Shown here: piece after piece, positions 4,117 to 19,849 of the stretch
How the letters are laid out: every line of letters begins with the position of its first letter
Numbering within the stretch: position 1 is the first letter of the stretch
Source of the DNA: Akkermansia muciniphila
Lineage (GTDB): Bacteria > Verrucomicrobiota > Verrucomicrobiia > Opitutales > Opitutaceae
Length of the DNA: 36,323 nt
Assembly (NCBI GenBank): GCA_945874545.1
Contig: CAMCHD010000003.1
Location: forward strand, 1 to 36,323
Reading direction: 5' to 3'
The notes under the pieces: model-generated
The model's database searches: none
What the model was told of the DNA's origin: nothing
What the model saw: the letters and a program-made list of their open reading frames with translations, nothing else
Position numbers and translations under genes: made by a program

Positions 4117-5861
4117 GCCGCCCCTTCCTTTCCACCCGGCATGACGAGGAGGCCTTCCGGCGGGCGATCAAAACTGTCCGCCAGCTCCTCCGGGGTGAGC
4201 GCCCGGCTGTCCGCATGCGCCGCACGCGCCAGCGCGACCGCCTGCGTGGGGGCGAGGTGGGTGCTTTCGAGGACTTCGAGGGCGTGGTAGGCCTCGCGCA
4301 ACGGCGCGTCGAGCAGCACCCGCCCGCCGCCCATCACGATCGCGCGCCGCGCGTAGCCGGGCATCAGATGCAGGTGGTGCGTCACGACCACGATGGTCCG
4401 GCCCGCCGCGTGCAGCTCGCGCGTCAGGTCCAGGATCGCGCGGGATCCGGCCTCGTCCTGCCCGGTGGTGGGCTCGTCGAAGACGAGCACCTCCGGCTCC
4501 ATCACCAGCACCGCCGCGATGACCACGCGCGCACGGTCGCCCTTCGACAGCGCGAAAGGGTGGACGCGGCGATGGGCCTCGAGTTTCAGCGCCCGCAAGG
4601 CGGCATCGATGCGCCGGGCCGATTCCTTCGGCGGCAGGCGGAGCGGGACGAGGGAGAAGCCCACCTCCGCCTCGACCGTGGGATTAAAAATCTGCCGGTC
4701 CGGATTCTGCGGCACGTAACCGATGCGACGCGCCAGCTCCGCCACCGATTGACGCGCCAACGGCGCGCCGTCTATCAGCACTTCGCCGGCGGTGGGTCGC
4801 AGGAGGTTGAGCAGATGCTTGAGCAGGGTGCTTTTGCCGGCCCCGTTCTGGCCGATGATGAGCGCGTAGTCGCCTCGAAAGAGGTCGAGACCGACCCCGC
4901 GCAGCGCCGCCGTGCCATCCGGGTAGACATGCTCGACATTCCGCAAAGCGAGGATCGGCAGCCCGTTGACCGCGAAGTCCGGCTCCGGCGGCGCGTAGGG
5001 CCGCGCGCGAGGCAAGCCCGCCAGGGCGCGGATGGCGTCGCCCAGGCGCACCGGCGCCACACCGGCGGCGCAAACCCCTCGCTTGGCGAGGTGGGCGAAA
5101 ACGCTCGTGACCTCGGGCGGACGCAGGTTGGCGCGGGCGAGCAGCCCGGCGTCCGCATAAATTTCGTCCGGCCGACCATCGGCGACGATACGCCCGCCGA
5201 GGAGCACGACCACCCGGTGCGCGGTCTCGGCCAGTTCGGCGGCGGCGTGGCCGGTGATCACGAAGGCCACCCCGTGACTACGATTGGTCTCGGCGACCAG
5301 GGCGAAGAGTTCGGATGCGCTGCGCGGATCGAGCTGCGAGACGGGTTCGTCGAGCACGATGAGGTCGGGTCGGAGCGCGAGCGCGGCGGCGAACGCGAGC
5401 CGCTGTTGCTGCCCGCCGGAGAGATCGTGCGGATGCTTGTGCGCGAACTCCGCCAGCCGCACCGCCGCCAGCGCCGATTTTACCCGCGCCCTGATTTCGG
5501 CGGCCGGCAGGCCCAGGTTCTCCAGAGCGAAGGCGACCTCGTTCTCCACGCTCGCCGAAACGAGCTGGGTATCGGGATCCTGGAACACCATGCCGACCCG
5601 CGCCGCCAGACGATGGATGGGCTGCTCGACCGTATCGTCGCCGCCGACCCGCACCGCACCAAAAAAACGCCCGCCGTGAAACTGGGGCACCACGCCGTTC
5701 AGCGTCAGGCAGAGCGTGGTCTTGCCCGCGCCGGTGGGCCCGACCAAGGCGAGGATCTGGCCGCGCGGGATGACAAGATCGACATCCCGCAACGCGGGCT
5801 CGACCGCGCGGGGATAAAAATAAGACACCTTTTCCAGGGTAACCAGCGGCGCGTCGGACAT
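4113..5861 (-). CDS. ECF transporter ATPase, two ABC domains fused (EcfA1-EcfA2/YkoD-like)
   Basis: The frame opens with TTG at 5870, but the ATG at 5861 ('MSDAPLVTLEKVSYFYP') is the likelier start and lies 5 bases after the S-component stop. The product is about 582 residues. Numbered from the upstream TTG, the first ABC domain has Walker A 'GPTGAGKTT' at 44-52, signature 'LSGGQQQ' from 150 and Walker B 'LIVLDEP' from 170. The second has Walker A 'GQNGAGKST' at 340-348, signature 'LSKGDRAR' from 441 and Walker B 'VLVFDEP' from 461. Fusion of the two ATPases is known from YkoD-type ECF systems, and an LSKG-type second signature also occurs there, so neither is a defect. It hydrolyses ATP on the cytoplasmic face to drive uptake. 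It overlaps EcfT by 4 bases. Confidence 0.93.
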   Translation of the reverse strand: MSDAPLVTLEKVSYFYPRAVEPALRDVDLVIPRGQILALVGPTGAGKTTLCLTLNGVVPQFHGGRFFGAVRVGGDDTVEQPIHRLAARVGMVFQDPDTQLVSASVENEVAFALENLGLPAAEIRARVKSALAAVRLAEFAHKHPHDLSGGQQQRLAFAAALALRPDLIVLDEPVSQLDPRSASELFALVAETNRSHGVAFVITGHAAAELAETAHRVVVLLGGRIVADGRPDEIYADAGLLARANLRPPEVTSVFAHLAKRGVCAAGVAPVRLGDAIRALAGLPRARPYAPPEPDFAVNGLPILALRNVEHVYPDGTAALRGVGLDLFRGDYALIIGQNGAGKSTLLKHLLNLLRPTAGEVLIDGAPLARQSVAELARRIGYVPQNPDRQIFNPTVEAEVGFSLVPLRLPPKESARRIDAALRALKLEAHRRVHPFALSKGDRARVVIAAVLVMEPEVLVFDEPTTGQDEAGSRAILDLTRELHAAGRTIVVVTHHLHLMPGYARRAIVMGGGRVLLDAPLREAYHALEVLESTHLAPTQAVALARAAHADSRALTPEELADSFDRPPEGLLVMPGGKEGAA

Positions 5862-5866
5862 GACGT

Positions 5867-6682
5867 TCAATAGACGGCCCCGCGAGGTTTCACGAGCGCC
5901 ATGGCCCTCAATCCGGCGATCACACCGGATCCCACCACCATGCCGATTCCACTGCGGATGGCGTGCTCCACCGGCACGACGCCGGCAAAAAAGTAGAACA
6001 GCTCGCCGGGCCAGTTGAAGAGGTAGTAGGAAATCGCCGATTCGGTCATCATCATGACCCCGGCCGCCGACCAGGTGCCGAGAAACAACCCGACGGCGCC
6101 GCGCCCCAGATTAGCCCCCGAGACGAGGGCGCCGATCCAACGGCGGGTGGGAAGGACAAACAGCGCAATGGCCAAAAAGTGCGTCGGGTAGGCAAAGAGG
6201 TAGGCGCGCAACGACACCCCGTTCGCGTTTACCGCATGGTCGCCGTAAAAAACGGGGGCGGCGAGCGCGACCACAGAGAGCAAAAGCCCCAGTCGCCAGT
6301 GCCTTCGGCCGGGCGCCAGGCAGCCCGCGCACAGGGCCGCGAGCATCGCGCCACCGACGCTTAACCAGACCAATCCGGCGGTATGCGGGGCAAGAAACGC
6401 CCCCACCAACGCGCCCGTGCCGCTCGCGACCGCCCCTGCCCAGGGCCCGAGCAGCCAACCGGTGAGCGGATATACCCCCTGCGCCATGGGGAAACTGCTG
6501 CCGCCGGAGAGCACGATGGAAAAAGGGATGAACGACAGCACGGCCACCACGGCCGCGAGCACGATGACGTAGGCCACCGGCGCTCCCGCGATCGAAGCCG
6601 AGTCGATGAATTCCACCCGCCGTTCCGGTCCGGTCGGGACAAAGCCCGAGGGCGATGGCGATGGCGCTCCGATTTCAGGCAT
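5867..6682 (-). CDS. ECF transporter S component (substrate-specific membrane subunit)
   Basis: This is an integral membrane protein of about 271 residues with roughly six hydrophobic segments. The segment 'GVYPLTGWLLGPWAGAVASG' followed by 'GALVGAFLAP' has the glycine- and proline-rich look of ECF S components ('LGPw.Ga..G..gdllg'). The ATG at 6682 is preferred to the GTG at 6688. The cytoplasmic N-terminus is about 35 residues long before the first membrane span. The sequence does not fit a named S-component family that I can recognise, such as ThiT, BioY or RibU, so the ligand cannot be read directly. It heads the minus-strand S-A-T operon. The 141-base upstream region shows no riboswitch that I could recognise. 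Its place among exported aminohydrolases suggests that it imports the small product they release; this is inference. Confidence 0.82.
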   Translation of the reverse strand: MPEIGAPSPSPSGFVPTGPERRVEFIDSASIAGAPVAYVIVLAAVVAVLSFIPFSIVLSGGSSFPMAQGVYPLTGWLLGPWAGAVASGTGALVGAFLAPHTAGLVWLSVGGAMLAALCAGCLAPGRRHWRLGLLLSVVALAAPVFYGDHAVNANGVSLRAYLFAYPTHFLAIALFVLPTRRWIGALVSGANLGRGAVGLFLGTWSAAGVMMMTESAISYYLFNWPGELFYFFAGVVPVEHAIRSGIGMVVGSGVIAGLRAMALVKPRGAVY

Positions 6683-6823
6683 GAACACCGCTTAGCAGGC
6701 CGCGTGCGGGGCGAGGCCGGGCCCGGCGGAAGACGCGGCGTTTTTTTGGCACTGGCGGTCCGGCCCGGGACTTGTCGCGCAAATTCCGACGCGGAAAACG
6801 TCTTTCCCACAACGAGGACACGA

Positions 6824-7540
6824 CTACCGCGCCGGCGGCAGCGCCCAGCGCAACGCGCCGGGCAGGCTTTGTTGCCACGCCACGAAATCATGTCCGCCCT
6901 CGAAATCCACCCGCACCACCTGATGGCCGGTGGCGCGCAAAGCCGCCTCGAACCGATCCACGCCCTCGATCTGCGAGACCACCTGCACTACGTCCACGTG
7001 CCGCACATTGGTCGTCGTCTCCCGGTCGCCCACATCCAGATAAAACGCCGTCGGCAGCGGTTGTGTGAGCTCGCCGAAACGTGACGCGAGCCAGCAATCG
7101 TTCCACCAAAACGAACCCGACTGCGCGATCACCCGGCCAAACTTTCCCGGCAACTCCCGCGCCACGAAGGCCGCCGCCAGGCCGGTGTAGCTCAGACCGA
7201 CCAAGACTCGCCCCAAGTCCGGGCCGGCCAGTTCCGGATGCAGGCGCTCCAGCCAGGGCAACAATTCCTCGCCCATGAACCGCGCGAAGGCCGGATGACA
7301 GGGACACTCCTTCCGACGCGCCTCGAAACTGTGCATCGAGACAAACACCACCCAAGCCGAAGCGATCTCGCCACGTCCCTCCAGCTCGTCGAACAACGCG
7401 CGCGCGCCCACGCGCTCCCGGTAGAGCTCGGCGTCGAGCACGACCACCAGATGGGAAGCGTCGCGCGGCGGCCGGCGTATCCAGATCGCGCGTTCGTTGC
7501 CGAGGTGGACGCTACGGATCTGGTGCGTGGTCTCGGACAT
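6824..7540 (-). CDS. Alpha/beta-hydrolase esterase (esterase D/IroE-like)
   Basis: The product has 238 residues and no signal peptide, so it is probably cytoplasmic. It shows the features of the putative esterase family that includes enterochelin esterases and S-formylglutathione hydrolase. 'HLVVVLDAELYRER' is the first core strand and loop, 'GRVLVGLSYTGLAAAFVARE' is the nucleophile elbow with serine in G-L-S-Y-T-G, 'FYLDVGDRET' probably carries the acid, and 'FEGGHDFVAWQQSL' carries the catalytic histidine. All three triad positions therefore look filled. It would hydrolyse an ester or thioester of unknown identity. The gene is on the same strand as the aminohydrolase array, 44 bases downstream of the Amidohydro_2 gene, and may be the last gene of that operon before the ECF genes. 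Confidence 0.85.
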   Translation of the reverse strand: MSETTHQIRSVHLGNERAIWIRRPPRDASHLVVVLDAELYRERVGARALFDELEGRGEIASAWVVFVSMHSFEARRKECPCHPAFARFMGEELLPWLERLHPELAGPDLGRVLVGLSYTGLAAAFVARELPGKFGRVIAQSGSFWWNDCWLASRFGELTQPLPTAFYLDVGDRETTTNVRHVDVVQVVSQIEGVDRFEAALRATGHQVVRVDFEGGHDFVAWQQSLPGALRWALPPAR

Positions 7541-7584: not shown

Positions 7585-8478
7585 CTAGAGCTTGAGCAGA
7601 CGCGCCGCGTTGGCACCGAGCACGAGGTCCAGCTCGGCCGGGGTGAGCGCGGCGCGGGCGCTGCGGGCGTCGTCCAGGTCGCGTTGGAACGTGACGTCCT
7701 CGGCGATTTTCGGGTGGGTGAACAGCGGGTAGTCGGTGCCCCAGAGGATACGCTCCGCACCGATCATGTCGGCCACCCGCCGGTAGACGCTGTGGTCGTA
7801 GAGCAGAGGGGAGGCGGCGGTGTCGTAGTAGACGTTTTTGAACAAGCGCCCCAGTCGCGGGTTGAGCTCGTAGAAAGGGATGCCCCCGCCCCAGTGGGCG
7901 AGGATGAAGGTCGTGGCCTGGTGGGCCTTGATCATCTCGAGGTAAGGTTCCAGCGGGGTCGGTTTGGCGCAGGAGCCGGGCGTGATGGCAAGCGGGTCGG
8001 TGACGTGGAGGTTGACCGGCACACCGCGTGCGGCGGCGAGGGCGAAGACGCGCCCCCAGTTCTCGTCATTCAAGTGGCCGCCCTGGGCCTGAGGGCAGAG
8101 TTCGCCCACCCCGATGAGGCCGGCGTCGAGCGCGCGATCCAGCGCCAGGAGCGCGGACGCCCCGGCGGCGGGATTGACGGCGGCAAAGGCCTGGATGCGG
8201 TCCGGGTGGGCTCGATGCCAGTCGATGAACCACGAGTTTTGCAGGTCGCACGTCGCCTGATTTTCCCAATACCAACCGAGCATGACGACCTGGTCCACGC
8301 CGGCGGAATCCATGTCGCGCAAAAGCTGCTCGGTCGTGGCCCAGCCCTGGAGCGTGGGCTGGTGCGGCGGCGCGACGCAGTAGGTGAACCAGGGCTCGCG
8401 GTGGGCGGCGCCCCATTTCACCGGGTCGGCAAAAACCTCGGGCGGGTAGGCGTGGATGTGGGCGTCGATGATCGGCAT
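7585..8478 (-). CDS. Amidohydrolase 2 (ACMSD-like) family metal-dependent hydrolase
   Basis: The 297-residue product has no leader and should be cytoplasmic. It shows the metal-binding landmarks of the Amidohydro_2 TIM barrel: 'IIDAHIHAYPPE' at the N-terminus (His-x-His), a histidine after strand 5 in 'VNLHVTDP', another in 'FILAHWGGG', and the aspartate in 'ERILWGTDYPLF'. Members include ACMSD decarboxylase, gamma-resorcylate decarboxylase and lactone hydrolases, so both C-C and C-O/C-N chemistry are possible. It lies between the TPR gene (9-base gap upstream) and the esterase (44-base gap downstream) in the minus-strand series led by three aminohydrolases. It may act on the imported product of those enzymes. 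Family confident, substrate unknown. Confidence 0.87.
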   Translation of the reverse strand: MPIIDAHIHAYPPEVFADPVKWGAAHREPWFTYCVAPPHQPTLQGWATTEQLLRDMDSAGVDQVVMLGWYWENQATCDLQNSWFIDWHRAHPDRIQAFAAVNPAAGASALLALDRALDAGLIGVGELCPQAQGGHLNDENWGRVFALAAARGVPVNLHVTDPLAITPGSCAKPTPLEPYLEMIKAHQATTFILAHWGGGIPFYELNPRLGRLFKNVYYDTAASPLLYDHSVYRRVADMIGAERILWGTDYPLFTHPKIAEDVTFQRDLDDARSARAALTPAELDLVLGANAARLLKL

Positions 8479-8487: not shown

Positions 8488-9204
8488 TCAGGGCGCGTCG
8501 CGCAGGGCTTCAAGAAAAGGCGTGAGCTCGGCGATCTGCGGATAGGTGATGTCGTGTTTGGCGAAGGTGGCGAAGTCGCCGAGCGCGAAGGCCGCGCCGG
8601 TGCGGCCATGGCCTATCTCGACCTTCGCGACGGCGGCGTAGAGCTTTTTCGCGGCCTCCAGGTTGCCGGAAAACGCCAGGCCGTGGGCGAGGTTAATGCG
8701 GTGGATCGGCGCGGCAGGCTCGACGGCCAGGCCGAGCGCAGCCTCGGCCACGACACGCGCCGGATTCTTCATGTAGAGATACAGCTCGGCGGTGTAGGCG
8801 CGGTAGTGGGCGAACTCGGGGTCGAGCCGGATCACCGTCGAGTAATCGGCCTCGCAGGCGGCGTAGTTTTTCTCGATCAGGCGGTAGGCCAGGTCGCCGC
8901 GATAGAGGATGGCGCGAACATTGAGCGGATCGACCTCGACCGCCTTTTTGAAATCGGCGGCGGACAGCGCGCGGTGTTCCGGCACGCCCGAGTAGAGGTA
9001 GGTGAAGGCGCGCTCCAGGTAGGCATCGCCCGAGGCGGGCTGCAGGGCGATAAGCGCGGTGCCGAGTTCGACCGCGCGTGTGACTTCCTTGGCCGAGCGC
9101 GCGGCGCGAGCCTCCAAGAGCATCGCGACGGGTTCGGCGGCGTAGGCGATCGCGGGCCACCAGACGAGCAGCGCGAGAAACCGACGGAGGCGAAGTGTTC
9201 GCAT
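8488..9204 (-). CDS. Exported TPR-repeat protein (paralog 3), in the aminohydrolase operon
   Basis: The ATG at 9204 gives a textbook signal peptide ('MRTLRLRRFLALLVWWPAIA', cut near 'YAAEP'). An in-frame GTG at 9222 would overlap the upstream aminohydrolase stop as GTGA and is an alternative start. The mature protein, about 215 residues, is TPR-like, for example 'ALIALQPASGDAYLERAFTY' and 'TVIRLDPEFAHYRAYTAEL'. Its end ('IHRINLAHGLAFSGN', 'FALGDFATFAKHDITYPQIA') matches the two TPR proteins at 807-2679. It sits directly after the three exported aminohydrolases and 9 bases before the Amidohydro_2 gene, so it is very likely co-expressed. A role in organising those periplasmic enzymes is plausible but unproven. 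Confidence 0.82.
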   Translation of the reverse strand: MRTLRLRRFLALLVWWPAIAYAAEPVAMLLEARAARSAKEVTRAVELGTALIALQPASGDAYLERAFTYLYSGVPEHRALSAADFKKAVEVDPLNVRAILYRGDLAYRLIEKNYAACEADYSTVIRLDPEFAHYRAYTAELYLYMKNPARVVAEAALGLAVEPAAPIHRINLAHGLAFSGNLEAAKKLYAAVAKVEIGHGRTGAAFALGDFATFAKHDITYPQIAELTPFLEALRDAP

Positions 9205-9218
9205 GGGACGCGGCCGAC

Positions 9219-10679
9219 TCACGGCATGGCGATGGTGAGTCGATTCTCGGCCGCAAGGCGGGCCACGCGGGTATCCACCTCACGGCGCAGGAGGGCCTCG
9301 TCCTGCTTGAGGTGGCGCTCGCCGTCCACCACCAGCTCGCCCCCGACATAGACCTGCTTCAGGTTGCGCAGGCCGCAGGCGAGCACATAGGTGCCGATCA
9401 CGTCGTGCACCGGGCCTGTGTCGGGCGCGCGCGGATCCACAAGGATGAAGTCGGCGAACTTGCCGGGCTCGAGGCTGCCGACCCGGTCCGCAACCCCGAG
9501 CACCTCGGCGGTGCTGAGCGTGTGCAGATGCAGCATGTGGTAGGTGGACATGGCCTTGGCGTCTTTGTATTTCGTGCGGATCAACGCCATTCCGATGCGC
9601 AGATTTTGAAACGGGTCGGAGATATCGGTGCAGGACTGGTCGTCGAGACCGACCGCCACCTTCATGCCCATGGCCTCGTAAAGCGGAATGTCGGCGACTC
9701 CAGAGGCGAGGCGCGAATTCGAGGTGGGTTGCCAGCACATGTGCGCCCCGGCCTTGGCCGCGCGGCGCACGAGGTCGGGCGTGGTCTGGATGAAGTGGCC
9801 GAAGATAAAGTCGGGCCCGAGTGCGCCGGCTTCCTCATACCAGGCGAACTTGGCCTGTTGGTCCGTCACCCGCTCGGGCGACTCGAGAAAGTGGGACTGG
9901 TTGATCAGGCCGAAAGTGCGCATGGCGCGGACCTCGAGGTCGGCGGTGGCCTTGGTGGGCGCACGCTGAAGACCGCCGGAGATGGCCATCTTTAACAGGT
10001 AGGGATTATCGGACTGGGTTTCCTTCACCCAGGCGACCAGCCTCCCAAGACGCTCGATCACCTCATCGTGGGTTCCGAACTCGGGCAAACCGACGCTGTT
10101 GACGAAGCGCAGGCGGGCGTCGGTCTTGGCTTTGATCTGATTTTCCTCGAAGGGTCCGGGTTTGAGCACAGGGGGCGGCACCTTTTCGCCGAGCCCGACG
10201 GCGGGCGTGCCGAGCGAGCCCGAATCGGTGAAGTCGTAGGCGGTGGTGATGCCGTTGCGCAGGAAATCCACCGAACCGTGAAGCGAGAACCAATACATGT
10301 CCTCGGCGGTCGCCCCGCGGGTGAAAGGGCCAAAGCCATTGACCCAGCCGTAAAGTGTCTGGTCGGTGGCCAGGCCGCGCAGAGGGCTCATGTAGATATG
10401 GCTGTGGCCGGAAAGAAACCCGGGGCCGATGATCTTGCCAGCGGCGTCGATCACACGGTCCGCCGCGTGGCCGGCGGGAGCGGCGCCGGCGGCGAGAGCG
10501 GTGATGCGGCCGTCGCCGCCAACCGTGAAGTAGCCGACGTAGGGCTTTTCCTCGCCGCGCTTCATGGTGATGAGCATGGCGTTTTTGACCAACAACGCGT
10601 CGGCGGCGAAGGCCGAGCCGGAGAGGCCGAGAAGGACCGTAAGGAGCGCGAGGGCGCGGTAGAGCGGAACGATTTTCAT
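9219..10679 (-). CDS. Exported COG0402-type aminohydrolase (array member 3)
   Basis: The product has 486 residues and a signal peptide ending about residue 25 ('LSGSAFAAD'). It is a TIM-barrel amidohydrolase of the deaminase branch that includes GuaD, SsnA and MtaD. Metal and catalytic positions are present: His92 and His94 in 'GHSHIYMSPLRG', His263 and Glu266 in 'NQSHFLESPER' (the HxxE pair that shuttles protons in deaminases), His295 in 'FGHFIQTT', and Asp346 in 'VGLDDQSCTD'. The family hydrolyses C-N bonds of purines, pterins or triazines, usually in the cytoplasm; export is unusual. It is third in a tandem of close paralogs. Its ATG overlaps the upstream stop by 4 bases. The variant 'DDQSC' after the metal aspartate differs from the usual 'DGxAS' and is shared by all three array members. 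Confidence 0.9.
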   Translation of the reverse strand: MKIVPLYRALALLTVLLGLSGSAFAADALLVKNAMLITMKRGEEKPYVGYFTVGGDGRITALAAGAAPAGHAADRVIDAAGKIIGPGFLSGHSHIYMSPLRGLATDQTLYGWVNGFGPFTRGATAEDMYWFSLHGSVDFLRNGITTAYDFTDSGSLGTPAVGLGEKVPPPVLKPGPFEENQIKAKTDARLRFVNSVGLPEFGTHDEVIERLGRLVAWVKETQSDNPYLLKMAISGGLQRAPTKATADLEVRAMRTFGLINQSHFLESPERVTDQQAKFAWYEEAGALGPDFIFGHFIQTTPDLVRRAAKAGAHMCWQPTSNSRLASGVADIPLYEAMGMKVAVGLDDQSCTDISDPFQNLRIGMALIRTKYKDAKAMSTYHMLHLHTLSTAEVLGVADRVGSLEPGKFADFILVDPRAPDTGPVHDVIGTYVLACGLRNLKQVYVGGELVVDGERHLKQDEALLRREVDTRVARLAAENRLTIAMP

Positions 10680-12160
10680 GGTTTGGAAAGGGGGGCGGCG
10701 GAAATTTTCGGCGAGGAAGCCGCGGACGCCGCCGCTCGCAGACGGTCGGTGCGGACGTCGATCTCGCGGCGCAGGGCCGGTTCATCCACATCCACGAGAC
10801 GAGGGCCGTCGGCCTTGAGCCGGCCGCCGACATAGACCTGCTTCAGGTTGCGCAGGCTCGTGGCGAGCACGTAGGTCGCGAGCGGCTCGTAGGTCGGGCC
10901 GGAATCGGGGTCGCGCGGATCGACCACGAGAAAATCGGCGAACTTGCCCGGCTCAAGGCTGCCCACATCACGCTCGATCCCCAACACCTCGGCCGAGCCC
11001 AGGGTGTGCAGACGCAGCATGTCGCGGATCGAGAGCGCGGCGGCGGACTTGTGCAGGCCGCGCATGGTGTAGAGGCCGATGCGCAGGTTCTGGAAGGGAT
11101 CGGCGACGTCGGTGCAGGACTGGTCATCCAACCCGACCGCGACCGGGATGCCGGCCTTTCGGTAACTCACGATATCGGCGATCCCGTCGGCCAGGCGGCC
11201 GTTGGAGGTGGGTTGCCAGCTCATCTTCGCGCCCGACGTGGCCACCGCCTTTACTATGGCATCGGTCACGTGAATAAAATGCCCGAAAATCAAGCGCGGC
11301 CCCAGCGCCCCGGCCTCCACATACCAGTCGAACTTCACCTGCTGCTCGGCCACGCGCTCGGGCGATTCCAAGAAGTGCGTCTGATTGAGCAGGTCGTAAC
11401 GCTCCATGTATTCCGCCTCCAGGTAGGCCGTCTTCTTGTCCGGCAGAAACTGCACCTCCCCGGAGATGGCCATTTTCAGGGCGAGCGGGCTTTCCGCCTT
11501 GCGCTTCGCGAAATGCGCCAGCGTCCGATCAAAACGCTCCCGCGTGGCCTCGGGCGTCGCCAATTCGACGATGGACACGCTGTCGATAAAACGCAGCCCG
11601 GCGACGATTTTCGCATCGATCTGGTTTTCCTCGAAAGGGCCGGGCGAGACATAGCCAGGCGCCACCACCTCGCCCGCCCCGACGGCGGGCGGACCGAAGG
11701 CACCCGGGTGGGTGAAATCGTAGGCGGTGGTCAGCCCGTTCCGCAAAAAATCGAGCGCGCCGTGGTAACTAAACCAATACAAGTCCTCGGCGGTGGCGTG
11801 GCGCAGATAACGATCCCACGACTCGAACCACCCGTAGAGCGTCTGGTCGTGGCCGAGGCCGCGCAAGGGGCTCATGTAGATATGGCTGTGCGCGGAGATA
11901 AAGCCCGGTGCGACGATCTGCCCGGAGACGTCGAGCAAGCGCGCGGCCGAGGCCAGAAGGTCGGCGGGGGGCTCGCCCGGTTCCAACGCGATGATGCGGC
12001 CGTCCATCCCCACCGTGAAATAGCCGGTAAACGAGTCCGGGCGCGCGTCCGCCACCGGGATCAAAAGCGCGTTTTTGACCAGCAGCTCGACTTTCGGGGC
12101 GGCCCGGCCCGCGCCGGCCAGCGCGAAAAAGGACAGGAGGAGGGCGACGGTGGTCTTCAT
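10676..12160 (-). CDS. Exported COG0402-type aminohydrolase (array member 2)
   Basis: The product has 494 residues, with signal peptide 'MKTTVALLLSFFALAGAGRA'. It shows the same deaminase-type residues as its neighbours: His91 and His93 in 'AHSHIYMSPLRG', His262 and Glu265 in 'NQTHFLESPERV', His294 in 'FGHFIHVT', 'MSWQPTSNGRLADG' (substrate loop), and Asp345 in 'VGLDDQSCTDVADPFQN'. It is clearly homologous along its whole length to the genes on both sides, so the array arose by tandem duplication. The differences are mostly in the segment between about residues 150 and 255, which could alter specificity. It overlaps both neighbours by 4 bases (ATGA), so one message and coupled translation are expected. 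Substrate unknown; aminated pterins or purines are the best guess. Confidence 0.9.
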   Translation of the reverse strand: MKTTVALLLSFFALAGAGRAAPKVELLVKNALLIPVADARPDSFTGYFTVGMDGRIIALEPGEPPADLLASAARLLDVSGQIVAPGFISAHSHIYMSPLRGLGHDQTLYGWFESWDRYLRHATAEDLYWFSYHGALDFLRNGLTTAYDFTHPGAFGPPAVGAGEVVAPGYVSPGPFEENQIDAKIVAGLRFIDSVSIVELATPEATRERFDRTLAHFAKRKAESPLALKMAISGEVQFLPDKKTAYLEAEYMERYDLLNQTHFLESPERVAEQQVKFDWYVEAGALGPRLIFGHFIHVTDAIVKAVATSGAKMSWQPTSNGRLADGIADIVSYRKAGIPVAVGLDDQSCTDVADPFQNLRIGLYTMRGLHKSAAALSIRDMLRLHTLGSAEVLGIERDVGSLEPGKFADFLVVDPRDPDSGPTYEPLATYVLATSLRNLKQVYVGGRLKADGPRLVDVDEPALRREIDVRTDRLRAAASAASSPKISAAPLSKP

Positions 12161-13695
12161 TTGGCGGCGACGAGCGGCGGGTGTTTTTCGTCGCAGACGC
12201 AGTCGGTAGCCGGGCTGACGGATACGGCCACGGGCTGGGCCGCGACCCTGGCGGCCGCCGCGCGCAGACGGTCGGTGCGGGTGTCGATCTCGGAACGCAG
12301 TTTCGCCTCGTCCACCCCGACGAGTGTCAGCCCTTCGACCTTCAGTTTTCCGCCCACATACACCTGCTTCAGGCTGCGCAGATCGCAGGCCAGCACGTAG
12401 GTGGCGAGAGCCTCATAAACCGGGCCGGTATCCGGCGAGCGCGGATCGACGACCAGAAAATCGGCGAATTTTCCGGGCGCGAGCGAGCCGACCTTGTCCG
12501 CGATGCCCAGCACCTCGGCGCTGCCCAGGGTGTGTAGGCGCAGCATCTCGCGGACGGAAAGCGCGGTCGCGTCCTTGTGGAAGGCCCGCGTGGTGTAGAG
12601 GCCGATTCGCATGTTTTGAAACGGATCGGGCACGTCGGTGCAGGATTGATCATCGAGGCCGACCGCGATGCGGATGCCGGCGTTCTTATACTTCACGATG
12701 TCGGCGTAACCATCGGCCAGCCGCCCGTTCGAGGTGGGTTGCCAGCTCATCGCCGCGCCGAACCTGGCGGTGGTTTCAAGGATGTAATCGTTGGTGTGGA
12801 TGAAATGGCCGAAAATGAACTTCGGGTTGAGAGCACCGGCCTCCACATACCAGTCGAACTTCACTTGTTGGTCCGCCACGCGGTCGGGCGATTCGAGAAA
12901 ATGGGATTGGTTGATCACATCGTGTTCCTTCGCGACCTCGGCCTCCAGGAAGGCGGTGCTCTTTTCGGGGAAAAACTGCACCGCACCGGAAATAGCCGTG
13001 CCCAGATATAGCGGGTCGGAACCATGGTTTCGGGCCGTGTGGGCCAGCAGGTCGCGGAAGCGCTGTTTGATCTCCTCCGGCGTTCCGACCGGCGTCAGGC
13101 CGACGGAGTTGTAGAAACGCAGGCCGGCGTCGGCCTTTCCTCGGATCTGGTTTTCTTGAAAAGGGCCAGGCTTGAGCCGCATCTGCGGCGCGGCTTCACC
13201 CGCGCCCATCGTGGGTTTCCACTCCTCGGTGCCGCCGTAGGTAAAATCATAGGCAGCGGTGACCCCATTGCGCAGGAAGTCCAGCGAACCGTGCAGTGTG
13301 AACCAATAAAGATCCTCTGCATTCGAATGCTTCAGGTAATTGTCCCAAGCACGAAACCAGCCGTAAAGCGTCTGGTCGTGGCCGAGTCCGCGCAGAGGAC
13401 TCATGTAGAGATGCGAGTGGGCGGAGACGAAACCAGGGGCAACGATCTTCCCCGCCACATCCAGGACGCGTTGCGCACCCGCGACCACTTCGGCGGGCGG
13501 CTCGCCGGGCTGGACGGTGAGGATGCGTCCATCGGCCGCCACCGTCATATGCCCCTGGAACGACGTCGGCTGGGCTGGATCGACCGGAATAAGGAGAGCG
13601 TTTTTGACCAGCAGGTCGACCGGCGCGGCAAAGGCCGGATACCAGAGGCCTGCCAAGATCAGGGCACGTGCGAGAACCAGAAGTGGGCGTTTCAT
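12157..13695 (-). CDS. Exported COG0402-type aminohydrolase (array member 1)
   Basis: This is the first gene of the minus-strand array, 512 residues. The signal peptide 'MKRPLLVLARALILAGLWYP' is followed by 'AFAAPVDLLV'. Key residues are His93 and His95 ('AHSHLYMSPLRG'), His265 and Glu268 ('NQSHFLESPDRV'), His297 ('FGHFIHTN') and Asp348 ('VGLDDQSCTDVPDPFQN'). It carries a C-terminal extension of about 20 residues beyond its paralogs, containing 'DCVCDEKHPP', a cysteine pair that might bind metal or form a disulfide in the periplasm. The promoter should lie in the 280-base divergent region shared with the pterin dehydratase gene, where an inverted repeat occurs at 13758-13779. It is predicted to deaminate a small heterocycle delivered by the TonB receptor; this is inference. 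Confidence 0.9.
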   Translation of the reverse strand: MKRPLLVLARALILAGLWYPAFAAPVDLLVKNALLIPVDPAQPTSFQGHMTVAADGRILTVQPGEPPAEVVAGAQRVLDVAGKIVAPGFVSAHSHLYMSPLRGLGHDQTLYGWFRAWDNYLKHSNAEDLYWFTLHGSLDFLRNGVTAAYDFTYGGTEEWKPTMGAGEAAPQMRLKPGPFQENQIRGKADAGLRFYNSVGLTPVGTPEEIKQRFRDLLAHTARNHGSDPLYLGTAISGAVQFFPEKSTAFLEAEVAKEHDVINQSHFLESPDRVADQQVKFDWYVEAGALNPKFIFGHFIHTNDYILETTARFGAAMSWQPTSNGRLADGYADIVKYKNAGIRIAVGLDDQSCTDVPDPFQNMRIGLYTTRAFHKDATALSVREMLRLHTLGSAEVLGIADKVGSLAPGKFADFLVVDPRSPDTGPVYEALATYVLACDLRSLKQVYVGGKLKVEGLTLVGVDEAKLRSEIDTRTDRLRAAAARVAAQPVAVSVSPATDCVCDEKHPPLVAAK

Positions 13696-13757
13696 GGGTT
13701 GTTGAGTGTGGGGACGGAAACCAGGGCGGGCGCGGGGACGGCATTGTCACGCGCGCA

Positions 13758-13779
13758 CCCGACGGCACGGAACGTCGGG
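13758..13779. promoter_or_regulatory. Inverted repeat in the divergent aminohydrolase/pterin-dehydratase promoter region
   Basis: A 7-base perfect inverted repeat, CCCGACG and CGTCGGG, separated by 8 bases, lies about 60 bases upstream of the first array aminohydrolase. The position suits an operator, but in GC-rich DNA a 7-base repeat can occur by chance. The rest of 13696-13975 shows nothing else that I can name. Confidence 0.35.
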
Positions 13780-13975
13780 CATACAACCGGGATAAACTCG
13801 AGCACCGGAAGCTCCGGGAAGGTGGCCGCGCGCGGAGGACATAGGAAGATCCACATACCCCCGTTAAGCTTACCCCGTGCAGGGCGCGTCTCGCGTCGTG
13901 GTGAGTTTGCACTTTCGTTGGGAGTTTACGGTAGCGGCGCGAGTCGCGCACGCCCGGTGCTCGCCGCGGCGACGT

Positions 13976-14407
13976 ATGAAAAAACACATGTTTGATTCTA
14001 TGATCGCCGCGGGCCTCCTCGCTTTCACGGGGTGCACATTTGCGGCGGCCGAATCCCTTCCGGAGATACAGCCTGTTTATGAGAAATTGAATCCCACCCG
14101 AACCAAATTGATGGAAGGCGATGAGCTGAAAGCCGCCCTCGCGGGATTGCCGGGCTGGGCCGAAAAAGACGGGCATCTGGTCCGTCTGTATTCATTTCCC
14201 ACCTACTCGGATGCGGTGGCATTCATCGTGCGCATCTCGCATCCCCTGGAGGCGCTGGATCACCACGCGGACCTCCGCAATGTCTACGGCAAGGTGTATG
14301 TCGCCTTTACCACCCACGACCAGGGAAACCGCATCAGCGACCTCGACTTCAAGGCAGCCCGCGCGGTCGAGGCGATCGCGGCCACATTCCCGCAGAAAAA
14401 ACCCTGA
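13976..14407 (+). CDS. Exported pterin-4a-carbinolamine dehydratase (PCD/DCoH/PhhB-like)
   Basis: PCD dehydrates 4a-hydroxytetrahydropterin, normally in the cytoplasm to recycle the cofactor of aromatic amino-acid hydroxylases. The 143-residue product begins at ATG 13976 with a leader, 'MKKHMFDSMIAAGLLAFTGC'; Cys20 could be a lipid-attachment site, though the Phe-Thr-Gly-Cys box is not ideal. The mature part matches the family: 'EGDELKAALAGLPGWAEKDG', then 'LDHHADLRNVYGKVYVAFTT', with the histidine pair His96-His97, the third histidine His114 and Asp115. The catalytic set is therefore intact. Thirteen bases downstream starts an exported aminohydrolase, so the two are probably one transcription unit. 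No aromatic hydroxylase is in the window. An exported PCD beside exported deaminases suggests pterin chemistry in the periplasm; the family is fairly sure, the role is inferred. Confidence 0.85.
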   Translation: MKKHMFDSMIAAGLLAFTGCTFAAAESLPEIQPVYEKLNPTRTKLMEGDELKAALAGLPGWAEKDGHLVRLYSFPTYSDAVAFIVRISHPLEALDHHADLRNVYGKVYVAFTTHDQGNRISDLDFKAARAVEAIAATFPQKKP

Positions 14408-14420
14408 GTCGCGGAACACC

Positions 14421-15860
14421 ATGCCGCGCATTTATTTCACCTTCCTTTTCCGCCTGGTGCCCACGCTCGTCCTTGCGGCCAGCATCCTGCTCCCGATCAT
14501 TGCTAAGGCCAAGCCGGCGCGGCTGGTCGTCACCAACGCGCTGCTCCTCACCCTCGCCGATGGCGACAAGACGCCGTTTCGCGGCCACCTTGTCGTCGCA
14601 CCCGACGGCACCATCGCCGCAATCGGCCCCGGCGAACCCGAGTCCGGCGCCTGGACGGCGGCGGAGACGATGGAAGCCAACGGCCGGTGGATCATGCCTG
14701 GATTCGTCTCGGCGCACAGCCACCTCTGGCAGAGCGCCTACCGCGGCCTTGCTTCCGATCAAACGCTGATGGGCTGGGTGGATGCGCTCTACCTGAAACG
14801 CGCGATGCGGGCACCGCCGGAGGACTTTTATTGGTTCACGCTGCACGGCGCCCTCGACCACCTGCGCCACGGCATCACCGGGGCCTATAACTTCAACTAC
14901 GGCGGCTGGCGCGAAGGCGATTTCGCCCGCGAGCAATTTCGCGCCGAGGTCGCCAGCGGGATTCGTTTTGTCCACGGCTACAACGTCGGCCGCATGGACG
15001 GCGACAGGACGGTGGAAGCCGCCACGACGCGATTGCGAGCGTTTTTGGCCTGGATCGAAACCCAACGCGCCACCTCGCCGGGCTTGTTATCGGTGATGCT
15101 CAACGGCGCCGCCGCCTTCACCAACGGACCGGAGCAAAGCCACCTGGAGAGCGCTCTCATGCGCCAGTTCGGACTCGGCAACCACCTGCACTATCTGGAA
15201 TCGCCACCCGAGAAATGGGAGGAGCAGGCGAGGTTCCGCTGGTTTCTCGACGCCGGACTCGTGACGGACAAAGTCATCTTCGGCCACTTCATCCACGTGA
15301 CCCCGTTTATCCTTGAAGAGACGGTCAAGGCGGAGGCGGGGATGAGCTGGAACCCGCTCTCGAACGGCCGGCTCGCGTCGGGCACGCCCGACATCGTCGG
15401 CTATCGCAAAGCCGGGCTACGTATCGGCCTCGGGGTGGACGGGCAGGCCAGTGCCGACATCGCCGACCCTTTTGAAAACATGCGGGCCGGCCTTTATGCG
15501 GTCCGGGCACGCGAGGAGGACGCCACCGTTCTCTCGCCTTACCAGGTCGCACGCATGCATACTCTCGGCGCAGCCGAGGTGCTTGGTGCCGAAAGCCGAA
15601 TCGGTAGCCTGGAAACCGGCAAACAGGCCGATTTTCTTGTGCTCGATCCTGGGGATTTCGGCCCGATTTTCGATCCGTGGGCCTCCCTGGTTTTCGTCGG
15701 CACGACCCGACAAATCGTGGAGGTCAGGGTGGGCGGAGAGTGTCTCGTGCGCGACGACCAACCGGTCCGACATGATTGGGCCAACCTTCGCGCCGAGGTG
15801 GCAAAACGAGTCGCGACCAACATTACCCTCGGGCCGATTCCCTCGAATCACTCGCACTAG
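14421..15860 (+). CDS. Exported COG0402-type aminohydrolase (divergent fourth paralog)
   Basis: The product has 479 residues from ATG 14421; the frame is open further upstream but only as a shadow of the PCD gene. A hydrophobic leader ('VPTLVLAASILLPIIAKAKP') should export or anchor it. The metal and catalytic residues are His99 and His101 ('AHSHLWQSAYRG'), His257 and Glu260 ('LHYLESPPEKW'), His289 ('FGHFIHVT') and Asp340 ('LGVDGQASADIADPFENM'). Here the metal aspartate is followed by the canonical 'GQAS', unlike the 'DQSC' of the three array members, so it may have a different substrate or represent the ancestral type. It lies between the PCD gene (13-base gap) and the TonB receptor on the same strand, which links uptake and periplasmic deamination. 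Confidence 0.9.
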   Translation: MPRIYFTFLFRLVPTLVLAASILLPIIAKAKPARLVVTNALLLTLADGDKTPFRGHLVVAPDGTIAAIGPGEPESGAWTAAETMEANGRWIMPGFVSAHSHLWQSAYRGLASDQTLMGWVDALYLKRAMRAPPEDFYWFTLHGALDHLRHGITGAYNFNYGGWREGDFAREQFRAEVASGIRFVHGYNVGRMDGDRTVEAATTRLRAFLAWIETQRATSPGLLSVMLNGAAAFTNGPEQSHLESALMRQFGLGNHLHYLESPPEKWEEQARFRWFLDAGLVTDKVIFGHFIHVTPFILEETVKAEAGMSWNPLSNGRLASGTPDIVGYRKAGLRIGLGVDGQASADIADPFENMRAGLYAVRAREEDATVLSPYQVARMHTLGAAEVLGAESRIGSLETGKQADFLVLDPGDFGPIFDPWASLVFVGTTRQIVEVRVGGECLVRDDQPVRHDWANLRAEVAKRVATNITLGPIPSNHSH

Positions 15861-16054: not shown

Positions 16055-18574
16055 ATGAAATCGCTAAAGCGTAAGCTAATTCGCAGCGGATACGGGGCCG
16101 GCCTTCTGGCCATGCCCATGATCGCGCTTGGACAGGAAACCCCGGCCCCGACGGCCGCGCCGGGCACCTCCGATGTCGTAACCCTTGAGGAATTTATCGT
16201 TCGCGAAAGCGGCACCGCCTCGCTCGACGCCATCCTTCCTTCCCAACGCCCAGTCGGGGGAGCGCTTTTGGGCGATATCACCGCGCTTGAATTGCCTCGT
16301 TCCGCGACAATCCTGAGCACCGAGGACATGCAGCAACTCGCCGTGGATGGTTTTGAAGACCTAGACCGGGTGGGCGCCGGCCTGAGCCGTCCAAACATCT
16401 TCGGCATCCCCGGCCTGCCGTTTATCCGCGGCGACAACGCCAGCGTATTCTTCAACGGAATGATGCGCATCGCCAACCAGAACGAGACGCCGACGTCCTT
16501 CGGTTCGTTCGAATCCTTCGAGATTCTAAAGGGACCCGCGCCCGCTCACTTCGGCATCACCAACGCGGGCGGTTACGTCGCCACCATTCCCAAGACCCCT
16601 TATTTCGACAAGCAGCGCGGCTCATTTGAGTTTACCCTTGGCGAGTATGACAGCTACAAAGGTCAATTCGACGTCGGCGGTCCGGTCGAGGTGCTGGGCA
16701 AACCGATGGCCTACCGCGTCTCCGTCACGCAGCAGCAAGCCGAGAGCTACTACGATAACGTCAAGAACGACTACACGTCCGTCTATGGCGCCATCAAGGG
16801 CCAACTTACACCCAAACTCACGTTCTTTACCGGTGGAGAATACTACAATTTCAAGTCCAACGAAAACGCGGGCTGGAATCGTGTCACGCAGGACCTGATA
16901 AACAACGGCAACTACATCATCGGTGACGCTGATCCCAACCTTATCGCCACCTCCGGCCCTTACAAGGGTTATGCCGACGTATCGACCTACGGGGCGTTTT
17001 TCCCCGACCAAAATCAAGCTGTCCTCGGTGGCTACAATCCAGACCTTGCCTTGGTCGTGCAAGCGGCGGATTTCCAGAAAGTATACGGCGCCCCCACCGG
17101 CCCCGGAGGCACCTACACCTCCGGTCCGGCCGCTGAGATGACTGTGGTAAACCTGGGTGGCAACCTCTACGGCTATAAATATACCCCGGAATACTTTGCG
17201 GCCGGTGGCAGGGCGCTCACCCGCAAAATCAAAGGCAGCACCGTCTTGTCCGACCGCAACGACTACGCAAACTCTCAGATCGGCGTGTGGTTTGGCGATC
17301 TGGTCTGGAAAGGCGATAGTCGCACCATCACCCTCAAATCACTCGTAGAATCGTCCGAGACCGAGAAGTTTTCCAGTTACGGCTTCGCCCACGATTCCGA
17401 GGGCTACGCCGTCAATGAGAAACTTTTGATCGAGGAGACGCATGATATCGGCCCCATACCGATGACCTTCCAATACGGGCTCGAATACCGTCGAACGGTC
17501 GTCAACGATGCAATCGATTTCTTTTACGAACCCTTCAGCCGTCGCGATATCAGCTCCGGAGAAATCCTTCCTGCATCTATCTCGCTTGCCGGACCGGTCG
17601 TGGATTGGGCCGCGTTGGCCGGTGACGAGTCGCGATCTGACCAATATGGAGCTTTCCTGCAAGCCAAAGCCGACTTCACCAAATATTTCACGGTTTACGG
17701 TGGCATCCGGCACGAGTTGACCGAATTTTCAAAAGGGGCTCCACGTGAAGCCAAAAGCAACGCTCCTTTCGTGAGTGGGAACGAGGAGTATCAAAACTAC
17801 TCAATCAACCCGGTCCTCAAACCCACCGACTGGTGGAGCATCTACGGCGTCGCCCAAGCCGGCACCTCGCTGGCCCCCGGCCAGACCGGTGGCATCGGCA
17901 GTCCATCCAACTTCATCGAGGCCCCGTTCTATGAAGCCGGCACCAAATTCGCGCTTCTTGATAAAAAGCTGTTCCTAAGCGCTTCCGTATACAAATTTGA
18001 GAAAACCGTGCTCAGCAATACCGTCATCGGCACCGGCGAGTCGTCCTACGAGTCGATCGGTTACGAACTTGAGCTCAATTATAAACCGACCAAAAACTTT
18101 AGCATGTTGGCAAACATCGGCGAGCAGGAATCCAAATATACAAATGGTTTCCCGTTTACCACCGCCCCGCTTAGCGAAGAAGATGTCGCCCTCACTGCTG
18201 GAGCGATTCAGTATGACGTGGTCAGCCCAGAATCGGTGCGCTACGCCAACAATCCCGACAAGATCCGCCAAGGATACCCCCTTTTGGTCGCCAACGTGTT
18301 CGCCATTTATGAATTCGACAATGGGTTTGGCGCCGGTTTCGGTCCCCAATACAAGAGTGAATTCTACAACGACAACGAGAAGACTATCAAGCTCCCTGAG
18401 GCGCTGATCTGGAACGCCAATCTATTCTATCGCGGCACCACCTGGGAGGTCTTCCTGCGGCTAAACAACGTGACGGACGAGGATTACTTCATTGGCTCCT
18501 CGTTTGCGCCCACCATGATCGTCACCAAGGCCGAGCCGTTTAACTGGGAGGTCTCGGTCAAATATAAGTTCTAG
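16055..18574 (+). CDS. TonB-dependent outer-membrane receptor
   Basis: The ATG at 16055 is chosen because it starts a signal peptide ('MKSLKRKLIRSGYGAGLLAM', then 'PMIALGQE'); the leader before it is A-rich (AACAAACAAA) without Shine-Dalgarno, while the open frame back to 15776 overlaps the upstream gene. The 839-residue product has an early 'DVVTLEEFIVRESG' segment, a plug domain with 'LPRSATILSTEDMQQL', 'GLPFIRGDNASVFFNGM' and 'FESFEILKGPAPAHFG', and a long beta-barrel ending 'NWEVSVKYKF' with the terminal phenylalanine used by the barrel assembly machinery. Late 'EVFLRLNNVTDEDYFIG' is the typical last-strands motif. The ligand is unknown. It follows the exported aminohydrolase by 194 bases, with a palindrome in between, and ends at a clear terminator. 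It probably brings the enzymes' substrate into the periplasm. Confidence 0.93.
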   Translation: MKSLKRKLIRSGYGAGLLAMPMIALGQETPAPTAAPGTSDVVTLEEFIVRESGTASLDAILPSQRPVGGALLGDITALELPRSATILSTEDMQQLAVDGFEDLDRVGAGLSRPNIFGIPGLPFIRGDNASVFFNGMMRIANQNETPTSFGSFESFEILKGPAPAHFGITNAGGYVATIPKTPYFDKQRGSFEFTLGEYDSYKGQFDVGGPVEVLGKPMAYRVSVTQQQAESYYDNVKNDYTSVYGAIKGQLTPKLTFFTGGEYYNFKSNENAGWNRVTQDLINNGNYIIGDADPNLIATSGPYKGYADVSTYGAFFPDQNQAVLGGYNPDLALVVQAADFQKVYGAPTGPGGTYTSGPAAEMTVVNLGGNLYGYKYTPEYFAAGGRALTRKIKGSTVLSDRNDYANSQIGVWFGDLVWKGDSRTITLKSLVESSETEKFSSYGFAHDSEGYAVNEKLLIEETHDIGPIPMTFQYGLEYRRTVVNDAIDFFYEPFSRRDISSGEILPASISLAGPVVDWAALAGDESRSDQYGAFLQAKADFTKYFTVYGGIRHELTEFSKGAPREAKSNAPFVSGNEEYQNYSINPVLKPTDWWSIYGVAQAGTSLAPGQTGGIGSPSNFIEAPFYEAGTKFALLDKKLFLSASVYKFEKTVLSNTVIGTGESSYESIGYELELNYKPTKNFSMLANIGEQESKYTNGFPFTTAPLSEEDVALTAGAIQYDVVSPESVRYANNPDKIRQGYPLLVANVFAIYEFDNGFGAGFGPQYKSEFYNDNEKTIKLPEALIWNANLFYRGTTWEVFLRLNNVTDEDYFIGSSFAPTMIVTKAEPFNWEVSVKYKF

Positions 18575-18728: not shown

Positions 18729-19253
18729 ATGAACCTTCGACTCCCCAAGACCGTGTTTGCCCTCGTCTTCCTCATGGTGGGCTTTGCCGCCCCGGCCCGC
18801 GCCATCGACGCCGCAGCGCAATCGCTTTACACCCGCTTTCTAAAGGCATGGGAAACCGGAGATGCCGAAACCTTCGCCGCCTGCCTACACCCCGATGTGG
18901 TGTTCAAGTATCCCGGCGGCATCCTGAAACGCGACGAACTCATCGCTACTTTCAAGAGTTATCCCGAAAAGAAAAGAGACATTAAAATCTACCTCGCAGA
19001 CTTCTTTGTCAGCGACGGCCCAAGGCATTACACTGCCTACCAGTTCGCCGCCACCGACCGGGAAACCGGCAAGCGCTTCGCGGTGGGAACCGGCGTGGCG
19101 GGTGAGGTGAAGGAAGGGCTTATCATCGCCTTCCGCGAGTATTGGGACTCGGAAGTCGCCCAACGTCAAAAAGCGGGAGATCTCCCGCTCGACGAAGGCG
19201 GTGTGCTCCCTTGGCCATCCTCCGTCTGGCTGCGTTTTGACACGATCGACTAA
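18729..19253 (+). CDS. Secreted SnoaL/NTF2-like protein (first of a pair)
   Basis: The product has 174 residues. ATG 18729 is preceded by AAGG and starts a signal peptide ('KTVFALVFLMVGFAAPARAI'). The mature part has the cone-shaped NTF2-like layout: an N-terminal helix 'QSLYTRFLKAWETGDAETFA', then 'CLHPDVVFKYPGG', 'YQFAATDRETGKRFAVGTG' and a final 'EGLIIAFREYWDSEVA'. SnoaL-like proteins include isomerases, dehydratases and simple ligand-binding proteins; no catalytic set can be assigned here. The stop overlaps the next gene's first ATG (TAATG), so the two are coupled. The last 40 residues resemble the end of the next protein ('PWPSS' against 'PWPSK'), which suggests duplication. Function unknown. 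Confidence 0.8.
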   Translation: MNLRLPKTVFALVFLMVGFAAPARAIDAAAQSLYTRFLKAWETGDAETFAACLHPDVVFKYPGGILKRDELIATFKSYPEKKRDIKIYLADFFVSDGPRHYTAYQFAATDRETGKRFAVGTGVAGEVKEGLIIAFREYWDSEVAQRQKAGDLPLDEGGVLPWPSSVWLRFDTID

Positions 19254-19849
19254 TGTATTGCGGGAACCTGAAATCTATGAAAACAACCTCATCGAATCAC
19301 ACTCTCCGCCGAAGCATGGGTCACCTGATTCAGTCTCTCGTTTTGTCCGGCTTCTGGATGACATCATCCCCTCTGGGCCATGCCGCTGAAGCGCCGAAAC
19401 CGGCCGTATACGATCCCAATTTAACCGCCGCCCAATGGGTGCCCCTCTACGGCGAGCAATGGTGGAATCACTATCATCCCGAATATGAGGGATGGTTTCC
19501 CGGGGGACGTTCCAATCTGCATCATGATACATGGCTAGCTAAAATCGCTATCAAACATGCCCTCACCAACAACTGGCTGATATTTAACCGGAACTACGCT
19601 TACGATGGACAATGGTTCGCGGTCGAGTGGAGCTACCGTGCCACCGATCTCACCGACGGATTTAAGCAGTGGGAAAGCACGCTCGGATTTGGCCGCATAG
19701 AAAATGGCCGCATGATTTTATGGTGCGAGTATTTTGACGACAACGTAGGCCACCTGCAGAAGTTAGGACTCATGCCCACATACGACGAAGATGAACCGCA
19801 CGCTCCTTGGCCTTCCAAGGCTTTTATCAAAATCCCCTACCGCCCCTGA
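19253..19849 (+). CDS. Secreted SnoaL/NTF2-like paralog
   Basis: The first ATG (19253) overlaps the previous stop as TAATG. The ATG at 19277 ('MKTTSSNHTLRRSMGHLIQS') gives a more typical leader and is an equally good start. The mature part begins after 'HAAEAPKP'. 'FNRNYAYDGQWFAVEWSYRA', 'GRIENGRMILWCEYFDDNVG' and 'EPHAPWPSKA' line up with the second half of the upstream SnoaL-like protein, while the first half, rich in Trp and Tyr ('YGEQWWNHYHPEYEGWFPGG'), has diverged. The role is unknown; binding of an aromatic ligand is possible from the many aromatic residues. Base composition here is clearly more AT-rich than in the flanking operons. A hairpin terminator lies 34 bases after the stop. 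Confidence 0.72.
   Translation: MYCGNLKSMKTTSSNHTLRRSMGHLIQSLVLSGFWMTSSPLGHAAEAPKPAVYDPNLTAAQWVPLYGEQWWNHYHPEYEGWFPGGRSNLHHDTWLAKIAIKHALTNNWLIFNRNYAYDGQWFAVEWSYRATDLTDGFKQWESTLGFGRIENGRMILWCEYFDDNVGHLQKLGLMPTYDEDEPHAPWPSKAFIKIPYRP

Follow-up and report, generated by a model that had tools for sequence, protein, structure and literature searches.

What would a set of COG0402 deaminases, a class of enzymes that is usually cytoplasmic, do outside the cytoplasm beside an outer-membrane receptor? The question is raised by a 36,323-nucleotide stretch of Akkermansia muciniphila DNA (assembly GCA_945874545.1, contig CAMCHD010000003.1, positions 1 to 36,323; hereafter the window), the start of a contig in a draft genome of 3.88 Mb that is 83% complete, in which four such paralogs with leader-like N-termini lie near a TonB-dependent receptor. 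The finding is real and larger than a preliminary description of the locus had suggested: the window appears to hold a conserved, apparently periplasmic deaminase system that is tied by operon and by fusion to pterin-related proteins. The features that carry this argument are as follows.

9219–10679, minus strand: deaminase A, 486 amino acids, predicted exported paralog with 56% identity to C
10676–12160, minus strand: deaminase B, 494 amino acids, predicted exported paralog with 66% identity to C, its start overlapping the stop of C
12157–13695, minus strand: deaminase C, 512 amino acids, predicted exported COG0402 amidohydrolase that opens the minus-strand operon, with Met at the position of the guanine-deaminase-type (GuaD) glutamine
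13696–13975: divergent intergenic region of 280 bases, separating the minus-strand and plus-strand operons
13976–14407, plus strand: pterin-4a-carbinolamine dehydratase (PCD, PF01329) with its own leader, opening the plus-strand operon, its HHP motif reading HHA
14421–15860, plus strand: deaminase D, predicted exported paralog with 43% identity to C and the GuaD-class glutamine (HSHLWQS)
16055–18574, plus strand: TonB-dependent receptor of 839 amino acids with a siderophore-receptor-like plug
19887–20759, minus strand: protein, leader-like at its N-terminus, that joins a PruR-like domain of the pterin-binding type to a C-terminal cytochrome c

The three tandem COG0402 paralogs and the one divergent paralog are present as the preliminary description had them, and the HxH, HxxE, H and D residues that it ascribed to them were located in A (HxH 92/94, HxxE 263/266, H 295, D 346), B (91/93, 262/265, 294, 345), C (93/95, 265/268, 297, 348) and D (99/101, 257/260, 289, 340), the likely start codon of D being the ATG at 14421 and not 14211. 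All four match Pfam PF01979 with E-values of 1.7e-29 to 9.1e-39, which excludes a chance match. The HxH-HxxE-H-D set is invariant in a family alignment of 25 sequences, and the structures that AlphaFold predicts for C (pLDDT 90.7) and D (91.0) match COG0402, amidohydrolase subtype III, the group that has this metal and proton-shuttle set in a TIM barrel. The four deaminases score far below the cut-offs of the 25 NCBIfam families listed for each, and the 8-oxoguanine deaminase model NF006055 gives 144.6–163.5 bits against a curated cut-off of 532. Of 15 named loci with relatives, nine are from Opitutaceae or Opitutae and three from Acidobacteria, the others being from Dactylosporangium, Nguyenibacter and a Methylacidiphilaceae bin.

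The arrangement of the paralogs around one promoter region stands as far as the 280-base divergent spacer is concerned; omitted from it was the PCD gene, which sits between the spacer and D. Four-base overlaps join C to B, B to A, and A to a gene for a tetratricopeptide repeat (TPR) protein, after which the minus strand carries an Amidohydro_2 gene, then an esterase and, as far as 3262, an ECF importer; the plus-strand order past the spacer is PCD, D, TonB receptor, SnoaL1 and SnoaL2. A scan of the spacer returned a single promoter-like match, which sits on the PCD start codon and was dismissed as unconvincing, and an Rfam scan of the window returned no match at gathering scores.

Deaminases A to D are very probably exported. 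Their leader-like N-termini of about 20–30 residues, called by reading of their features, show a positive start, a hydrophobic core and small residues ahead of the likely cleavage site, followed by the conserved first strand. A hydrophobicity score fails to separate the classes (2.16 for the presumably cytoplasmic control FAD1, 1.53 for deaminase C) and is unsuited on its own, so the export call uses the leader features, the N-terminal extension and conservation in the clade. The distance from the start to HxH is 85–125 residues in leadered copies versus 69–81 in leaderless ones. From 77 initial homolog rows, six were dropped (two at about 27% identity, two with an HxH context outside the pattern, namely the G057 D copy and L106, and two fragments), and of the 71 that remain 65 carry a leader by reading and six are leaderless. 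The leadered set, being assigned from the N-terminus, takes in three copies that have no automatic score (L044, L079 and L085_511) and four that score below 1.7 (window C, L050, L081 and L097). On a tree of 68 sequences, three short ones being omitted, the leaderless copies are confined to one part, in two groups, with two changes needed (shuffled mean 5.8; 0 of 500 shuffles as low). Export is well supported, and the leaders appear to be a trait of the clade, which upholds the earlier suggestion that a normally cytoplasmic kind of deaminase is exported here, next to a TonB receptor. A secreted bile salt hydrolase of the amidohydrolase superfamily has been reported (PMC13081902, a preprint, in its available part), so export has a precedent in the superfamily.

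The leaderless copies differ from the leadered ones in their surroundings. Within the examined stretches, a gene for an NMT1-type substrate-binding protein (SBP) lies at most 1.4 kb from four of the six leaderless copies and from none of the 65 leadered ones (p = 1.5e-5, uncorrected for relatedness); the four SBP-linked copies are closely related to one another and have a single leadered sister, L090. The pattern may be read as one step that precedes import in one group and follows it in another. A TonB gene, counted for this receptor family only, lies within 0.5 kb of 8/65 leadered and 0/6 leaderless copies, a difference that is not significant (p = 1.0); the dropped G057 D copy would be a ninth with an adjoining TonB gene.

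A glutamine after beta-strand 1 defines GuaD enzymes, according to the available part of PMC12828455, and D has this residue. It is found in 45 of the 71 homologs (D and 44 of the 70 others), among them those from Acidobacteria and Nguyenibacter as well as the four leaderless ones linked to an SBP. In HMMER alignments the Q of D falls on the Q of 3hpa and that of the family profile on the Q of 7ww2; the MTA/SAH-type enzyme 4f0r has Met at this place. The substrate of D is likely to be of the GuaD type. The four paralogs had been taken as one deaminase set, which holds for the catalytic residues; they are not one class, the glutamine occurring in D only, and A–C probably differ from D in the ring, or the position on it, that they attack. 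Close relatives of A–C have Met, Thr, Phe or Ser at this position. At locus L085 a single frame of 964 amino acids (3386–6109, plus strand) apparently comprises two tandem deaminase domains, with Gln at the specificity position of the first and Phe at that of the second. The same locus has a deaminase of the CDA fold (dCMP_cyt_deam_1; 7643–8230, plus strand; family also in L088, L092 and L054) whose L085 copy has an apparent signal peptide, a second, unrelated fold of apparently exported deaminase beside leadered COG0402 genes. Genes of one further family, whose L089 member Pfam identifies as a Rieske oxygenase, lie near Gln-type deaminases at L089:7837–9024 (minus strand) and L090:10667–11704 and 13227–14318.

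The first link to pterins is the PCD, which forms one operon with D and matches PF01329 with 77.5 bits against a gathering score of 26, narrowly missing NCBIfam NF002017 (75.2 against 80). When 252 genomes of the Opitutaceae family were searched with a profile of the cluster PCDs, eight matched at E <= 1.1e-48, seven of which were already in the search profile, and the next match stood at 5.5e-32; the cluster-type PCD is a separate family. The deaminase is found at E <= 1e-60 in 26 of the 252 genomes, comprising seven of the eight with a cluster PCD versus 19 of the 244 others (p = 4e-7, four genera, uncorrected for relatedness). The Glu and double His are present in all eight cluster PCDs, which have these residues and PF01329 in common with PhhB/DCoH and differ from them by a leader or by fusion to exported-type partners. 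Two such fusions, each a single open frame by Pfam, join an NMT1 binding protein to PCD in G178 (locus L147) and G265 (L151), and a third joins cytochrome c to PCD in G263 (L148). On the 3.9-kb contig of L148 lie, in addition, SnoaL1 and SnoaL2, another copy of the cytochrome and a fragment of a deaminase; no deaminase was found on the 20 kb taken of L147. In genome G001 the cluster-type PCD has no clear leader, with no other match to the window queries on the 18 kb taken. Genomes G058 and G257 were rejected as two-PCD genomes, their matches being fragments, and a second PCD match in G099 fell below the cluster-family scores in the profile search. Genome G004 has a stand-alone cluster-type PCD with a leader (L149:8786–9241), with no deaminase genes on its 11.6-kb contig.

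The second link is the N-terminal domain of the cytochrome c protein. The genome to which the window belongs gives no match to PF00174 (SUOX-type), so the PruR-like domain is invisible to Pfam. Among 177,635 PDB sequences the two best matches to the profile of the N-domain family are the pterin-binding structures 7rkb and 7kos, and hhalign against an alignment of seven PruR relatives gives 91.9% (E 6.8e-7, 137 columns), with at most 0.9% for six unrelated alignments and at most 4.6% for 40 column shuffles. On a reading of the printed alignment, the Trp of RPWGV and the Tyr of NDGYAS, both invariant in four close cytochrome copies, align with the Trp and Tyr of PruR. PruR Tyr104 and Trp160 are named in pterin binding in the available part of PMC13259868. 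The window domain combines profile homology to PruR with the pterin-contact Trp. It is a remote homolog of PruR, a periplasmic pterin-binding protein of the PruA-PruR-DcpA pathway (7kos, 7rkb; PMC13259868, available part); unlike PruR, it is joined to a cytochrome c beside catabolic-type genes, and a divergent copy without the contact residues is joined to a PCD. The PruR-cytochrome family is present at E <= 1e-8 in 38 of the 252 genomes, 18 of the 26 with the deaminase versus 20 of the 226 others (p = 2e-11, uncorrected for relatedness).

Capture, processing and then import of aminated heterocycles had been proposed for this locus, and the importers of the cluster fit that order; overlooked were the exported PCD, the PruR-like cytochrome c and the fusions, which narrow "aminated heterocycles" towards pterin-like compounds. 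From the observed gene content, leader features, catalytic residues, conservation and fusions we infer the substrate, the order of steps, the electron transfer and the pairing of importers with compounds as follows. Pterin-type heterocycles would enter across the outer membrane via the neighbouring TonB receptor. In the periplasm, the PruR-like domain on cytochrome c would bind a (probably reduced) pterin and could accept its electrons, the exported PCD would bind or dehydrate a 4a-hydroxy intermediate, and the exported COG0402 enzymes would hydrolyse exocyclic amino groups. D would follow the route of GuaD enzymes, with a 2-amino-4-oxo ring as its target (pterin to lumazine type), and A–C would act on rings for which the glutamine contact is dispensable. 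After deamination the product would enter the cell through the ECF importer, the NMT1-ABC importers or both, and amidohydrolases in the cytoplasm would break it down. Pterin as the substrate class is moderately supported, and for the pathway as a whole, a periplasmic and catabolic pterin-processing system, we put the chances at even. Doubtful, though possible, is the fullest form of this proposal, a first dedicated periplasmic pathway for reduced pterins. In it, the compounds would be captured at the outer membrane, linked by redox coupling to the respiratory chain via a cytochrome c that binds pterins, converted with the help of PCD and, ahead of import, deaminated by several exported enzymes, each specialised; the SBP-PCD and cytochrome-PCD fusions would be re-wired modules, and a sister clade would have shifted the same step into the cytoplasm beside an ABC binding protein.

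Several observations weigh against a pterin pathway. No cluster-type PCD was found in 19 of the 26 deaminase genomes, some of which are incomplete, so many members of the clade may act on other rings. The canonical catalytic PCD motif, which we take to be [EDKH]xxxH[HN][PCS]...[HW]...D, is present in three of the eight cluster PCDs versus 17 of the 18 housekeeping loci with an extracted candidate (20 given); in the other five, including that of the window (HHA), the Pro or third His is changed, and the role may be binding rather than dehydration. A, B and C have Met in place of the GuaD glutamine (HSHIYMS, HSHLYMS; HSHxYMS). The PruR matches in the PDB are weak (E 0.02 for 7rkb, 0.22 for 7kos), hhalign falls to 50.7% with the four closest sequences alone, and both the aligned Tyr and Trp are absent from the PCD-fused cytochrome of L148 and from second copies in G034 and G057. 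The module to which the window-type cytochrome belongs occurs without deaminases at L160, L162 and L166, the TonB receptor resembles siderophore receptors in its plug with no ligand inferred, and the genome co-occurrence statistics ignore relatedness.

The fold search also counts against pterins. The models of both C and D match MTA/SAH/adenosine deaminases first, so that the search cannot separate the two, and then AtzA, 3hpa (which we take to be an 8-oxoguanine deaminase, its PDB title reading amidohydrolase only), the isocytosine deaminase 7ww2 and guanine deaminases. Such a ranking favours periplasmic salvage of purine or pyrimidine bases and nucleosides (guanine, 8-oxoguanine, isocytosine and adenosine types), with the PCD and PruR-like domain there for another reason, as do the cytosine-deaminase family enzyme within the window, the Xan_ur_permease adjoining the L090 relative and the leadered CDA-fold deaminase beside the L085 cluster copies. 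However, PCD is not known to have a role in base salvage, the same PCD type occurs in fusions with an SBP and with a PruR-like family cytochrome c, and cluster PCD and deaminase co-occur; base salvage is accordingly held to be rather unlikely. Quenching rather than feeding, in which the enzymes would destroy extracellular pterin signals of the PruR-DcpA type or pterins released by the cell itself, draws on the PruR-like domain and on the excretion by bacteria of pterins that act in the periplasm (PMC13259868, available part), but the importers and the leaderless amidohydrolase kept in the cluster argue for uptake and make it improbable. Modification by the paralogs of a siderophore, antibiotic or xenobiotic that is taken up through TonB, or hydrolysis of chloro or alkylamino groups in the manner of AtzA and TrzN, has little probability: the receptor plug, the presence of AtzA and TrzN among the structural matches and an enterochelin-esterase-like gene (below its family cut-off) speak for it, whereas the conserved partners include pterin-related families and no siderophore-synthesis gene is among the annotated genes of the window, the rest of the genome not having been searched for them.

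The pterin pathway proposed here has partial counterparts among known systems. The pterin deaminases Arad3529 of Agrobacterium and PDA of Variovorax sp. F1 (PMC9513972, available part) are alike in ring deamination, probably the reaction of D; unlike them, the window locus has leaders, paralogs, a PCD, a cytochrome and importers. The Variovorax enzyme, shown with cell-free extracts and recombinant protein, belongs to an organism that deaminates folate and pteroate, and the main text of that report does not use the words periplasm, signal, gene cluster or transporter. The 8-oxoguanine and isocytosine deaminases (3hpa, 7ww2) and the GuaD cluster have the fold and the HxH-HxxE-H-D set in common with the window enzymes, and the glutamine after strand 1 with D only; D is 24–26% identical to the 8-oxoguanine and isocytosine enzymes, and the window enzymes differ in having leaders. 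Among open-access papers, judged from titles and abstract openings, none was found on exported COG0402 deaminases or periplasmic pterin breakdown. According to the available part of a 2026 review, bacteria excrete pterins, whose concentrations outside can greatly exceed those inside, and their crossing of the membrane is unexplained, with no efflux system identified (PMC13259868). The locus offers concrete, testable candidate genes by which pterins may be captured, converted in the periplasm and imported, and its deaminase family, with leadered and leaderless members, supplies a natural pair for comparison. It would also make extracytoplasmic deamination by COG0402 enzymes a conserved trait of a bacterial family.

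The remaining annotated features of the window are the following.

3–788, plus strand: a second binding protein of the NMT1 type, truncated at the end of the contig, with relatives that are PCD-fused in two other genomes
3262–6688, minus strand: ECF importer, with T component 3262–4116, fused ATPases 4113–5870 and putative S component 5867–6688 of no known family
6824–7540: enterochelin-esterase-like gene
7585–8478, minus strand: Amidohydro_2 (PF04909) enzyme without a leader, kept across clusters
8488–9222, minus strand: leadered TPR protein, a member of the minus-strand operon, its start overlapping the stop of A
18729–19253, plus strand: SnoaL1, a SnoaL_2/DUF4440 protein with a leader
19253–19849, plus strand: SnoaL2, with a leader-like N-terminus and no Pfam family, its relatives weakly SnoaL-like
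21931–23013, plus strand: NMT1-type substrate-binding protein, part of a second conserved module
23052–24365, plus strand: PRK07583-type cytosine deaminase, part of the same module

The cluster of deaminases, PCD, TonB receptor, SnoaL1/2 and ECF importer is kept in three related Opitutaceae genomes (G034, G057 and G265), and a copy in G266, cut by a contig end, has the TonB receptor, deaminase and TPR genes with no PCD shown. The putative S component (minus strand) is 59–60% identical in the other three clusters and has no match in Pfam, NCBIfam or the PDB. Seven PDB matches to SnoaL2, mostly antibody chains (best E 0.027), were taken as chance.

The second module (19887–35232) consists of the PruR-like cytochrome, AraC, the NMT1 binding protein, the PRK07583 cytosine deaminase, FAD oxidases, DUF3891, MFS, an ABC importer, CocE and creatininase, and probably represents an N-heterocycle pathway of its own. 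It recurs at L160 and L162–L166 with a membership that varies by locus; L164 (G006) is 85–95% identical to the window from AraC to CocE with no deaminase there, the G006 copies being on other contigs. Since the window-type cytochrome belongs to this module, which is found also without deaminases, two modules meet in the window. A further amidohydrolase-like family, its members alike by eye (L090:5323–6558, L104:16116–17339 and L151:240–1472), was noticed at other loci and not in the window; it adjoins DUF3891 in two of these loci and lies near a cytosine deaminase in the third.

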